From assembly GCA_905479565.1 (NCBI GenBank), contig CAJQMY010000002.1:1-42230 (forward strand): a stretch of 42,230 bases of DNA. Reading direction: 5' to 3'. The notes below the pieces were generated by a model. That model saw only the letters and a list, made by a program, of their open reading frames with translations, was not told where the DNA came from and made no database searches. Shown here piece by piece: positions 36,387 to 41,162 of this stretch. How positions within the stretch are numbered: position 1 is the first letter of the stretch; every line of letters starts with the position of its first letter. A program made the translations under genes and the position numbers. The stretch comes from an uncultured Candidatus Nitrosopumilus sp. (GTDB taxonomy: Archaea > Thermoproteota > Nitrososphaeria > Nitrososphaerales > Nitrosopumilaceae).

Positions 36387-37739
36387 ATGTTTGTTCAAAG
36401 AACTAAAGTTTTACAAATTTCACTTTTAGCTATATTTTCAGCATTTCTAGTTGAATTAATTTTTGGATTAATCTCCAACAGTCTGGCATTAATTACTGAC
36501 AGTATTCATGCACTACTAGATAGCGTGGTAACTTTGGTTTTACTTTTAGCTGCTAGATGGGCAATAAAACCTCCAGATGCTGAACACACGTATGGTCATG
36601 GAAAAATTGAATCACTTGGAGGTTTAATTGGAGGCATAGCAATTTTTCTGATTGCATGTTTTTTCATTTACGAGTCAATCAACAGATTACAAAGTCCACC
36701 TCCAAGTATTTTACCAGGATTATTTGCAATAATTGGCGGGCTATACACAATTGGAATTGACTTTTTTAGAATTATTCTCTTGAGAAGATCTATTAAAAAA
36801 ATTGGCGGGGCTACTTTGAAAGCAGATTTTTATCATGCATTTATGGATCTAGGCTCTACTTTAGTTGCAATAATAGGAATTGTTTTGGTTTCATATGGAT
36901 TGTATTTTGGAGATTTTGTTGCAGCATTAATCTTAGGAATTTTACTGGCGGCACTGAGTGTGAAATTAATACACAAAACAGCATTAGATTTGACTGACAT
37001 AATATCTCCAGAACTTGTCAAAAATGTCAGAGAAATTTCGAGCTCAACAAAAGGAGTTGTTAATACAGGATCAATTCTTATGAGAAGATCAGGGGACACA
37101 ATTTTTGCTGATGTCACAATCGCTCTCAGGGGAGATACTAGTTTTGATAAAGCTCATGAAATTAGCGATAGTGTTGAAAGAAACATAAAAAATAAAATCC
37201 CAAATGCATCAATTACAATTCATTTTGAACCGAATTGGAAAGATGTTCCATTGGATGCAAAGATCTTAGACATTGTGCAAAATGTAGATGGTGTTAAAGG
37301 AGTTCACAATGTCACCACGCATAAAACAAAGAATAAGACATATTCCAATTTGCATGTAATGGTACAACGAGAAATTGATTTATTTTCTGCTCATAAAATT
37401 TCAGAAATAATAGAACAAAAAATTCAAGAGCAAATTCCAGAGATTGAGCATGCCACCATTCATCTAGAACCATTTGTGACGGTTCCAGAAAATATCAATG
37501 TTGAAGATATTGAAACTGAAGAAAAAATTAAAACCATATTAGAAAAATATCCAGACATTAAGAAAATAGGTAGAATTGTATCTTTGAAATTTGAGAATAT
37601 TCTCAAAATAGATATTGACTGTTCATTTAACAAAGATTTGTCAATTGAAAAAGTTCACGATTTGACATCAGAAATTGAGCACATTATTAGAATTGAAATT
37701 AAAAATTCTGTGATTACTATTCATCCAGAACCAAATTAG
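36387..37739 (+). CDS. Cation diffusion facilitator, zinc-type, with three C-terminal domains
   Basis: 450 residues. CDF proteins export divalent metals from the cytoplasm in exchange for protons. Six membrane segments lie in residues about 8-205. The transport site reads HALLD in TM2 (within ITDSIHALLDS) and HAFMD in TM5, the HD-HD set typical of zinc-selective members; Mn transporters have DxxxD. The cytoplasmic part is unusual: three successive copies of the metal-sensing dimerisation domain (about 205-290, 293-372, 375-450). Each ends alike: ITIHFEPNW, ATIHLEPFV, ITIHPEPN. Typical members have one. The stop overlaps the convergent ZIP gene by 4 bases. Confidence 0.92.
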   Translation: MFVQRTKVLQISLLAIFSAFLVELIFGLISNSLALITDSIHALLDSVVTLVLLLAARWAIKPPDAEHTYGHGKIESLGGLIGGIAIFLIACFFIYESINRLQSPPPSILPGLFAIIGGLYTIGIDFFRIILLRRSIKKIGGATLKADFYHAFMDLGSTLVAIIGIVLVSYGLYFGDFVAALILGILLAALSVKLIHKTALDLTDIISPELVKNVREISSSTKGVVNTGSILMRRSGDTIFADVTIALRGDTSFDKAHEISDSVERNIKNKIPNASITIHFEPNWKDVPLDAKILDIVQNVDGVKGVHNVTTHKTKNKTYSNLHVMVQREIDLFSAHKISEIIEQKIQEQIPEIEHATIHLEPFVTVPENINVEDIETEEKIKTILEKYPDIKKIGRIVSLKFENILKIDIDCSFNKDLSIEKVHDLTSEIEHIIRIEIKNSVITIHPEPN

Positions 37740-38914
37740 ACCAAGATGCTAGTCAGATACATGATGATCATTCCAATTGCAAAGCCAGAGGCAACTGCGG
37801 CACTTGAGAGGTTTTTGTCACCCTCTTCGCGTATCCATTTTAGAATGGTAATGATAACTTGAAATATTGCACCTGCACCAATTGACAAAAATATAACTGA
37901 TGTAAATGGCGAATAAACAAAGCCACCTATCCATGCACCAAAAATAGCCGGAGCGCCAGCAATTAATCCCATGGCGATGAGTTTTCCAATCACTTTTTTC
38001 TCTCTAGACAATGGTGAAGCTATTGCAATTCCTTCAGTCGTATTATGCAGTGCAAAACCTATAATCAAAAATGTGCTAAAGGCAATAGATCCAAGACCTA
38101 CAGCAGCTCCTATTGCAAGTCCTTCACCAAAGTTATGAAGACCTATACCAATTGATATCATTAATGCAATTGCAACAGGTTTTGTTATCCTAGATGATTT
38201 TGCTCTACTTACTAATTTTTCACCAGTATAATATAATCCAAGAAATGACAATATCAAAACAGTCGCAACAAGCAATACTCCATTAAAGCTACCTGCAAGA
38301 CTTTCATCTGAGACTTCCAATGCTTCTTCAACGGAATCAATTCCTAAAAATAATAATAGTCCAGCAGTCAATGCCAAAAAAAAATGATATTTTTGTTTGC
38401 TAATTCGTCTAATAAATGGCAACCAAAGTAATCCAATCATTACAGGAATTATTCCAACATAAGTTCCGATTATTGCAAAAAATCCAAAAAGCTCAAGACT
38501 GGGTTCTAATGCAGGAGCGGCGGCTTCAATCTCTTTTTCAAATCTAGTTCCATCCTCAATCGTGATTCCAATTCTATAGGGTTCTGCCTCATTCCATTCA
38601 AAAGGAATTCTAACAAGAGCTGTTTCATATCGTTCTAGGTATCTATCAGGTTCAACTGCTGCAGGCTGTATCCTGTCATTGATATCAGCCATTGCAATTT
38701 CAACTGATATTGGACCAGTGTTTCTAACTGTAACCTGGATTTCGGAATTTAAAAAATCAACTTTTTCCATAGATATATCAGGCAATGGAACACCCAAATC
38801 CAGTAATTCAGATCCAGGACCAAAAATATATGCAATCAAGATGATTAAAAATACGAAGGGGATTGCACCGCTTGCAATCAATTTTCCTTTTGAAGACTTG
38901 TTACTAACTTCCAT
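37736..38914 (-). CDS. ZIP-family metal transporter with N-terminal extracytoplasmic domain
   Basis: 392 residues. ZIP proteins bring zinc or other divalent metals into the cytoplasm. The binuclear metal-site motifs are HNFGEGLAIG (TM4) and HNTTEGIAIA (TM5), in the C-terminal transporter part (about 145-392). Before that come a first TM (about 12-30) and a roughly 110-residue beta-rich soluble domain (KVDFLNSEIQVTVRNTGPIS ... YRIGITIEDGTRFE), predicted to lie outside the cell. Standard ZIPs lack it; it may deliver or bind metal. The start overlaps the end of the multicopper oxidase by 11 bases, so the two form an operon. Confidence 0.88.
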   Translation of the reverse strand: MEVSNKSSKGKLIASGAIPFVFLIILIAYIFGPGSELLDLGVPLPDISMEKVDFLNSEIQVTVRNTGPISVEIAMADINDRIQPAAVEPDRYLERYETALVRIPFEWNEAEPYRIGITIEDGTRFEKEIEAAAPALEPSLELFGFFAIIGTYVGIIPVMIGLLWLPFIRRISKQKYHFFLALTAGLLLFLGIDSVEEALEVSDESLAGSFNGVLLVATVLILSFLGLYYTGEKLVSRAKSSRITKPVAIALMISIGIGLHNFGEGLAIGAAVGLGSIAFSTFLIIGFALHNTTEGIAIASPLSREKKVIGKLIAMGLIAGAPAIFGAWIGGFVYSPFTSVIFLSIGAGAIFQVIITILKWIREEGDKNLSSAAVASGFAIGMIIMYLTSILV

Positions 38915-39962
38915 ATTCTTCAGACTCTATACTTTTTTTGTTTTCATTTACCAGAAATATTCCAACCCAGCCTTTTTCTGAAAATTCAACTTTGTGTGCA
39001 TGGAACAAATATTTTCCAGGGTATTGGTATTCAAATTCCATTATCCCTCTTTCTGTTTGCGATAGGGTAATCATATCAGTGTAAAATGATGGTACAATAT
39101 CAGTCCCAGTTGGATAATATTTGTACAGATTGCCATGTAGATGAAAATTGTTAATTGGATCAAATTCTACCATATTAACAACATAAACCCGAATTAATTC
39201 ATCAGTGTTAATCTGAATCGGGTGATGTTGATAATAGAATGGAATTGTATTAGCAGCATAAAAATTATTTTCAGTGTCAAAATCAGTATCTAATCCATTT
39301 AACACCATAACCATTTCATCAGCTGCTGGACGTTTTTCTTTTGGATCTACTATAAAGACACCATACAGACCATGTACGATATGCTCTTCTAAAGGCATCA
39401 CATGACAATGATATGGATGAACGCCGACAGGCCCTGCTTCAAATTCATAAATAAATTGTCCGCCATTGCCTCCAACTGGTTCAAAAACACCATCCATTCC
39501 AGCAGGATGAATCCCATGAAAATGAATAGTGTGTTCTTTTTCCCCATTGTTGATGAATTTGACTCGTACAATATCGCCTTCAGTCACTCGAATTGTCGGT
39601 CCTGGAACTGTTCCATTAAAGGTCCACACATTGTAAAATATCCCAGGAGATATCTCCATAATTTCGTCATCATTTGCAATAATTGTGAATTCTCTTAGAG
39701 TAGTGTTATCATCAAGTTGAGAGATTCGTCCATAGTTGAAATCACGTAGATACTCCATCGGATCAAATTCTACAGTTGCACTAGTGTATAGAGGATCTAA
39801 CACTTCACCAGTGGTTTTGACAACTGCACCACTATGAGTGACAAAAACATTTTCTTCTTGCTGAGCATTAATTCCTTCAGGAATGGCAACAAATAGAACA
39901 GATACTGCAATAATTACAAACATGGACATCATCATGACACCAGAACGAGATTTTATTTTCAT
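38904..39962 (-). CDS. Secreted two-domain multicopper oxidase
   Basis: 352 residues from ATG 39962; the longer reading to TTG 39989 would start inside the TATA box. The signal peptide ends near GINAQ. Copper ligands seen: domain 1 HTIHFHGIHP and HPYHCHVMPLEEHIVHGLYG (type 1 copper Cys-His, with the trinuclear His pair); domain 2 NNFHLHGN and YLFHAHKVEFSEKGWVG (His pair but no Cys). Type 1 copper is therefore in domain 1 only, the type C arrangement of two-domain oxidases. AOA encode several of these, suggested to act in nitrogen oxide or metal oxidation, but the substrate is unknown. Close coupling to a ZIP transporter favours a metal role. Confidence 0.9.
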   Translation of the reverse strand: MKIKSRSGVMMMSMFVIIAVSVLFVAIPEGINAQQEENVFVTHSGAVVKTTGEVLDPLYTSATVEFDPMEYLRDFNYGRISQLDDNTTLREFTIIANDDEIMEISPGIFYNVWTFNGTVPGPTIRVTEGDIVRVKFINNGEKEHTIHFHGIHPAGMDGVFEPVGGNGGQFIYEFEAGPVGVHPYHCHVMPLEEHIVHGLYGVFIVDPKEKRPAADEMVMVLNGLDTDFDTENNFYAANTIPFYYQHHPIQINTDELIRVYVVNMVEFDPINNFHLHGNLYKYYPTGTDIVPSFYTDMITLSQTERGIMEFEYQYPGKYLFHAHKVEFSEKGWVGIFLVNENKKSIESEEYGS

Positions 39963-39988: not shown

Positions 39989-39996
39989 ATATAAAG
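39989..39996 (-). promoter_or_regulatory. TATA box of the multicopper oxidase-ZIP operon
   Basis: Minus strand CTTTATATTG. A transcript starting about 25 bases downstream would begin near 39967, just before ATG 39962. The element directly abuts the first 19-base repeat at 39997. Confidence 0.55.
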
Positions 39997-40053
39997 TTGG
40001 CCTAAGCTAACTTTCTTAGCCTACTCTAATTTTTTTAGTCCAATCTAACTTTG
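39997..40053. promoter_or_regulatory. Three abutting 19-base direct repeats, candidate operator
   Basis: Units: TTGGCCTAAGCTAACTTTC (39997-40015), TTAGCCTACTCTAATTTTT (40016-40034) and TTAGTCCAATCTAACTTTG (40035-40053). The consensus is TTAGnCYAanCTAAyTTT; a weaker fourth copy begins near 40059 (CTAGACCAAAT). They fill the space immediately upstream of the multicopper oxidase TATA box, in the divergent region before the 168-aa gene. Each unit holds inverted half-sites TTAG/CTAA, similar to the TTAGG/CCTAA half-sites of DtxR-family metal-dependent repressors. This regulator assignment is an inference. Confidence 0.6.
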
Positions 40054-40115
40054 TTTTACTAGACCAAATATTTATGAAAAATTAAGTTTAAACTAAAGAT
40101 AATCAGCCTAAATCT

Positions 40116-40622
40116 GTGCAAAAATCAGGATTAATTATTGTAATTTTTGGATTGTTAATTGTAACAGGACTAGTAATGTCAATTGTAGAAAATCAAATAA
40201 CGTTAGAAGGAATCAATCAAGGGAATGGAAAAGTTAGTTCTATTGAAACAGTTATAATTTCAGTGGATCTTGATAAAAAAATTACACCCGTAGGGATTTT
40301 TGCGGTTCAAATAATGGAATTCAAAGAAAATGCAATTTCTGCAATAATTTTAGACCCATCAAACATAGAAATTATTTCTCAAAAAATAAATGAAGAAACA
40401 CTTGAAAAAGAGTTTGATGTATTTGAAACTGGAACTTATCAATTAATTATTCAGAGTTCTGATGAAGATGAAATTTATGTAGCAGGCGCGATTGGTTCAT
40501 TACCAGATGCTAATAAAAAATTTATCCTATCTATAATTTCATTGAGTATTCTTATCATAGGAATGATGGGATTAGCCACTATGGCGGTAATTGGAATAAA
40601 GAATAAGAAAAAATCAATTTAG
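40116..40622 (+). CDS. Two-TM protein with extracytoplasmic beta domain, 168 aa
   Basis: It starts at GTG; a TATA-like GTTTAAACTA at 40087-40096 is about 25 bases upstream, so it may be leaderless. TM1 is residues 5-23 (LIIVIFGLLIVTGLVMSI). A beta-rich domain (about 30-125) has an Ig-like pattern (TVIISVDLDKKITPVGIF ... FETGTYQLIIQSSD). TM2 is about 137-160, with a basic tail KNKKKS. The predicted topology puts the middle domain outside the cell. No family is recognised. It shares the repeat-containing promoter region with the multicopper oxidase and may belong to the same response. Confidence 0.65.
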   Translation: MQKSGLIIVIFGLLIVTGLVMSIVENQITLEGINQGNGKVSSIETVIISVDLDKKITPVGIFAVQIMEFKENAISAIILDPSNIEIISQKINEETLEKEFDVFETGTYQLIIQSSDEDEIYVAGAIGSLPDANKKFILSIISLSILIIGMMGLATMAVIGIKNKKKSI

Positions 40623-40925
40623 ATAACTATCCATTTTTTCTAAACCACTAATTGCTTCATCAAAGTTATCACTATCCTCAATAATACTGGCGAGTTTTTC
40701 AGAATTTGCCGTTAGTATACATTTTTCATCATCAAAAGATTTTGAAATAAACCCATGTTCAATCAAATATTAAAGCCTTTCAAGAACTTCAGATTTAGAA
40801 ACAGATGATTGTTCAGCTAAAAAAGAGCATTCTTTTTGGCCGTCCTCAAGTTCTGCTAAAATTAATGAAGTGGTTGAATCAAACATACATTCAACAATTT
40901 TTTCTCGACTAATTGTATCGCTCAT
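40614..40925 (-). pseudogene. Small regulator-like gene broken by an in-frame TAA
   Basis: Read from ATG 40925, the frame gives MSDTISREKIVECMFDSTTS ... AEQSSVSKSEVLERL, then TAA at 40770-40772, and continues in the same frame with YLIEHGFISKSFDDEKCILT ... FDEAISGLEKMDSYLN and a proper TGA at 40614. The restored protein is 103 residues. The helix pattern followed by GFISKS suggests a winged-helix-like DNA-binding protein. A single G to T change (GAA to TAA) would explain the stop. Longer readings upstream of 40925 are not protein-like. Its 3' end overlaps the convergent 168-aa gene by 9 bases. Confidence 0.65.
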
Positions 40926-41009: not shown

Positions 41010-41162
41010 ATGCAAAAACTCTGCAGTAAGGATCCATCTGGAAAGGGAATACATTGTTTTTGTGTAGATATTGACGCTCAAAGAGGAGTCAAAAAATGCT
41101 GTAAATGTAATCTATGGAACATCCAAGGTAATAATTGGACTAGTGATGCGGATTTTCGATAA
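41010..41162 (+). CDS. Cys-rich small protein, 50 aa
   Basis: An open frame from ATG to TAA coding 50 residues with six cysteines: Cys5, CFC near 16-18, and CCKC near 30-33, plus several Lys and Trp residues. The spacing could build one zinc or Fe-S site. It lacks a signal peptide. It lies between the broken regulator-like gene and rps13. I do not recognise the family. The high Cys density and codon-like composition make it more likely real than chance. Confidence 0.55.
   Translation: MQKLCSKDPSGKGIHCFCVDIDAQRGVKKCCKCNLWNIQGNNWTSDADFR

Follow-up and report, generated by a model that had tools for sequence, protein, structure and literature searches.

A 19-bp repeat array at the promoter of a thaumarchaeal multicopper oxidase gene as a probable operator of an MntR-type regulator

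Which protein reads the three repeats that precede the gene for the multicopper oxidase MCO1, and to which metal does the gene answer? Ammonia-oxidising archaea are major nitrifiers of the ocean, and MCO1 is widespread among them, with a role so far guessed as copper uptake. The window analysed here is a stretch of 42,230 nucleotides, one contig of the Nitrosopumilus-like genome G000 (1.42 Mb). The first-pass annotation of this DNA had taken the repeats for the operator of a DtxR-type metalloregulator, an interpretation that is supported as largely correct by sequence comparison and is here narrowed to the MntR subtype. With high probability, the repeats are a cooperative operator array of an MntR-type, Mn-sensing repressor (L033), which would block TFB/TBP at the promoter of MCO1 and its neighbouring ZIP permease gene, an Mn(II)-regulated uptake module.

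The repeat array and the MCO1 promoter

MCO1 (38907..39962, minus strand) is a thaumarchaeal two-domain multicopper oxidase with Pfam Cu-oxidase_3 and Cu-oxidase_2 matches, and its orthologues are 61-91% identical; the name is the lineage name of PMC7785015, assigned by identity and ZIP linkage and not by a tree. Translation likely starts at the ATG at 39962 (MKIKSRSG...), which is likelier than the TTG at 39989 considered as another start. The adjoining gene (37736..38914, minus strand) encodes a ZIP-family metal permease, a class assignment resting on a weak Pfam Zip match under the curated cut-off. It overlaps the end of MCO1, is linked to it in nearly all relatives, and forms an operon with it.

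On the minus strand, in the direction of MCO1, the array reads TTAGATTGGACTAA (unit 1, distal, 40035..40048), TTAGAGTAGGCTAA (unit 2, middle, 40016..40029, an exact pair with unit 1) and TTAGCTTAGGCCAA (unit 3, proximal, 39997..40010), followed by CTTTATATT. Each unit has the form TTAG-N6-CTAA, and the period of the three is exactly 19 bp, in agreement with the positions and strict period given by the first-pass annotation. The proximal unit touches the putative TATA box CTTTATA (39990..39996, minus strand), which lies directly downstream as had been proposed and which is kept in relatives as TTTAAATA/TTTATATT, and it overlaps the expected BRE; the distal unit is also kept in relatives. The array is the sole TTAG-N6-CTAA triple with at most one mismatch per unit within the 42-kb window, 300 dinucleotide shuffles of the full window yielded no such triple, and the two exact matches of the pattern TTAGNNTNGRCTAA in the whole genome both fall inside it. 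The observed three-unit repeat array is confirmed as real. The sites had also been thought to lie on nearly the same face of the helix, which does not hold, because with 10.5 bp to a helical turn a 19-bp step makes 1.81 turns, and each next site is rotated by about 65 degrees.

The divergent gene on the other side of the array, TM2 (40116..40622, plus strand), encodes a two-TM protein without a Pfam match. Its presence in the region, pointed out at first reading, is syntenic in relatives, but it is not tied to the sites. None of eleven loci with the wHTH gene (encoding an ArsR-like winged-helix protein), with or without TM2, that lack an adjoining transporter has an operator site at threshold, and the BRE/TATA-like element of TM2, AATTAAGTTTAAACTAAAG (40080..40098, plus strand), persists at several of them (L288, L289, L291). 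TM2 is therefore probably no target of the operators, and the presence of sites follows neither TM2 nor the wHTH gene. The segment TTTAGTTTAAACCTAA, considered as a fourth operator, remains with TM2 where the transporter is absent and is therefore read as the TM2 core promoter. The wHTH gene itself (40617-40925, minus strand) carries an in-frame TAA at 40770-40772, either a real nonsense mutation or an assembly error, and is intact in every relative read. Between it and uS13, a conserved 50-aa cysteine-rich protein is encoded at 41010-41162 (plus strand), syntenic in most Nitrosopumilus-like genomes.

The operator in relatives and at other importers

Absence of the repeats from the orthologous oxidase promoters of relatives had been named at the outset as what would speak against an operator, and the array is conserved there across the family. 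At orthologous MCO1 promoters it takes the form [AGTTAGATTAGGCTAAAAA][AGTTAGCCTAGGCTAACTT]TAAATA. In a set of 80 MCO1 loci (L164-L243), 70 have two or more units that reach the threshold, 82 of the 87 unit spacings are exactly 19 bp, and the proximal unit is 1 or 2 bp from a TATA-like element in 71. In many relatives the proximal unit is a perfect 16-bp palindrome, GTTAGCCTAGGCTAAC. A search of 121 genomes with the tandem pattern matched in 89, and among the matches listed most lay at MCO1, NRAMP or ABC promoters; the backward control gave few matches. A unit also adjoins the TATA box at MCO1 promoters of several genomes of the sister family f8, probably Nitrososphaeraceae (for example GTTAGCCTGGGCTAAC in L326), and sites are weaker in the other families of the order.

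The scan of the genome and its relatives suggested by the first-pass annotation outlines a candidate regulon, in that MCO1-ZIP, NRAMP and MntABC-like promoters share the array. The scoring matrix was trained on MCO1 promoters only, and the threshold was the 99th percentile of upstream regions of the complete relative G068, put together from 80 stretches. By this matrix, 18 of 20 NRAMP/MntH promoters exceed the threshold, and when the spacing was left free between 14 and 30, 19 bp scored best in 18 of 20. Two NRAMP promoters, L353 and L358, lack a strong site, which counts against the MntR reading. All five promoters of MntABC-like (Mn/Zn/Fe-type) ABC cassettes carry the array as well; the operator overlaps the core promoter at importer genes of all three kinds. 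The ABC cassette adjoins TM2, in the slot held by MCO1 in the window, in four of the five genomes (L145/L244, L245, L246/L279, L247/L277), and lies about 3 kb away from TM2 in G018; two of the cassette genomes, G114 and G018, lack MCO1. NRAMP (E<1e-100) occurs in 22 of the 121 genomes, spread over genera g6, g8, g9, g14 and g17, 21 of them without MCO1 and one with it (Fisher p ~4e-14 by our own tally, uncorrected for relatedness). Thus, the MCO1, ABC and NRAMP systems have one common operator and largely replace each other.

The MCO1 promoter ranks top for a 19-bp pair among the 1502 upstream regions of G068, scoring 36.5 vs 15.3 at the next locus, and the regulon therefore looks small. Among the next-best pairs is a weak unit, TTTAGCTTATCCTAAT, at a PhnD/PhnC-type ABC cassette (L072:14871; G068 C1:754871). 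A site at 437190 at the end of an SOD gene and others scoring 11-15 were set aside as background-like, and TTAGATTGGGCTAA sites in genera g3/g12 as coding, since they encode LDWAK in PAC2-like proteins.

Several further occurrences were seen. In G046 MCO1-ZIP is present twice, with a separate MntR-type gene beside each copy, together with an ABC cassette, and all of these have operators (L005, L156, L145). In genus g19 the site TTAGCCTAGCCTAA, of the form TTAG-N6-CTAA, stands upstream of a SufB-like gene (L144:4170, L149:2928, L150:4052, L154:3573), and in G093 the gene for a 94-aa membrane protein is preceded by two TTAG-N6-CTAA units that lie about 14 bp from each other (L151:3758-3790). Three nearly complete genomes, G009, G056 and G075, have neither MCO1, a strong NRAMP nor the ABC cassette, which regulation by MntR leaves unexplained; they may have a fourth importer, and in G009 one site lies next to TM2, close to the end of a contig (L281:167).

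The candidate regulator and the metal

The genome of the window encodes one MntR-type protein, DtxR_A (L033, contig C22), and a second DtxR-family protein, DtxR_B (L034, contig C18). In relatives, five loci (L005/L297, L006/L300, L023/L295, L156, L317) of genomes G030, G046 (twice), G059 and G041 have an MntR-type gene immediately upstream of MCO1; such a gene follows ZIP co-directionally in four genomes of the sister family f8 (G150, G158, G190 and G182; L329, L331, L332, L333); and it diverges from NRAMP with an operator between the two in L369, L375 and probably L370. These regulator genes all belong to MntR subtype A/C and none to subtype B. Because mntR-like genes stand beside MCO1, ZIP and NRAMP and because other importers have the operator in common, four kinds of gene context support a DtxR-family regulator, and an MntR-type protein would be the cognate one.

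The closest PDB entries to DtxR_A are the MntR structures 6kta and 1on1, and all six metal ligands of Bacillus subtilis MntR (D8, E11, H77, E99, E102, H103) are kept in DtxR_A, as they are in DtxR_C and the sister-family homologue. Tyr22 of the inter-dimer contact is retained in DtxR_A. Counting against an MntR assignment, Arg24 and Arg58 of the Bacillus dimer-dimer contact are replaced by T and H, and the scores against the NCBIfam MntR model NF003025 are 130.6 (DtxR_A) and 132.4 bits, against a cut-off of 138. DtxR_B is without the MntR ligand set. Since the regulator would be of the MntR subtype, manganese rather than copper is expected, and the metal of the operon is probably manganese.

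With enough Mn(II) in the cytoplasm, MntR dimers carrying Mn would occupy the TTAG-N6-CTAA sites next to one another in 19-bp steps, and the proximal dimer would cover the BRE beside the TATA box, blocking TFB/TBP and RNA polymerase and keeping MCO1-ZIP off. When Mn is scarce, the repressor would leave and the operon would be transcribed. Repression rather than activation is suggested because the sites sit at the BRE/TATA, and manganese, as co-repressor and as transported metal, by the ligand set and by the types of importer. MCO1-ZIP would then be one of three largely interchangeable uptake modules under the same operator, along with the MntABC-like ABC transporter and NRAMP/MntH. It is about as likely as not that the copper oxidase itself assists Mn(II) import via ZIP, as part of a manganese uptake module exchangeable with NRAMP and MntABC under cooperative 19-bp arrays of an archaeal MntR.

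The main rival to manganese is iron, with DtxR_B (C18) reading the sites and the operon answering to Fe(II). TTAG...CTAA is also the frame of IdeR, near the D8 position DtxR_B carries a Met, and a Cys precedes its GIEHH (C-GIEHH) as in iron-sensing DtxR/IdeR, the pairing of a multicopper oxidase with a permease recalls yeast Fet3 with its permease, and the sufB-associated site of the one genus would fit iron as well and counts against manganese. However, no subtype B gene is found beside an operator and the array has the 19-bp packing published for MntR, which leaves iron improbable. A copper-responsive regulator, with MCO1-ZIP serving copper uptake as the literature proposes, would accord with MCO1 being a copper enzyme and with the modest rise of MCO1 (log2 0.81) and its ZIP (log2 1.33) under copper limitation in Nitrososphaera viennensis (PMC7785015), which likewise counts against manganese. 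It fails to account for the same operators on NRAMP and on an Mn/Zn-type ABC transporter or for the adjoining MntR-type genes, and the copper-limitation motif of that study is unrelated to the repeats, so that we regard copper as very unlikely.

Least probable of all is that the wHTH protein beside TM2 is the regulator. Its gene is conserved one gene away in most genomes, but the operator is missing from the wHTH-TM2 loci without a neighbouring transporter, MCO1 copies distant from the wHTH gene keep their sites (L005, L006, L015, L023, L156), and the window copy has its in-frame stop.

The preferred reading, an MntR-type array, suggests that a gene pair usually tied to copper uptake is manganese-controlled. 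The operator itself is of a known type, and the surprise lies in what it implies for MCO1-ZIP: if MCO1 shares a manganese regulon with NRAMP and MntABC, it gains a definite role open to testing, and ammonia-oxidising archaea would seem to manage their Mn supply actively. Among the papers searched, none described a DtxR/MntR regulon in Thaumarchaeota, and an earlier description is possible. Archaeal DtxR regulons are reportedly treated by Leyn and Rodionov (J Bacteriol 2015).

Comparison with known metalloregulatory sites

Among archaea, MDR1 of Archaeoglobus fulgidus is a metal-dependent repressor of the DtxR family for which one promoter carries several operators, an arrangement to which the present array bears a likeness. 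The copper-limitation motif of N. viennensis, TTCSGSMTTTGWACYANT, found on MCO4 and CopC/D genes (PMC7785015), likewise lies upstream and is tied to MCO genes in an ammonia oxidiser, but it is copper-linked and unrelated in sequence, and the repeats do not match it. The operators of IdeR/DtxR, of 19 bp (TTAGGTTAGSCTAACCTAA) or, for a single dimer, of 14 bp (TTAGGNNNNCCTAA; PMC8464063), have the same outer half-sites and the same 14-bp frame. However, IdeR places two dimers on one 19-bp site, a palindrome that the array units do not fit, whereas here separate units recur every 19 bp; its metal is Fe, and here Mn would be expected.

The closest likeness is to MntR. The units are inverted-repeat DtxR-type half-sites that fit the 14-18-bp dyad of MntR operators, and Bacillus MntR dimers occupy 18-bp sites with 1 bp between them, which gives a 19-bp period, with dimer-dimer contacts in arrays that involve Tyr22 (PMC11275975). 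The arrays of B. subtilis mneP/mneS and E. coli mntS have the same inverted-repeat dimer sites in exact 19-bp packing, the regulator there shares its six metal ligands and Tyr22 with DtxR_A, and at the importers mntA and mntH the sites overlap the promoter as they do here. The arrays at mneP/mneS, however, activate exporters, whereas the multi-site array found here stands at importers. The window would offer an archaeal example in which MntR is packed with the 19-bp period of Bacillus and E. coli, on a native promoter open to study, which differs from those systems in its archaeal TATA/BRE elements, in its site core TTAGCCTAGGCTAA and in having MCO-ZIP among its targets.
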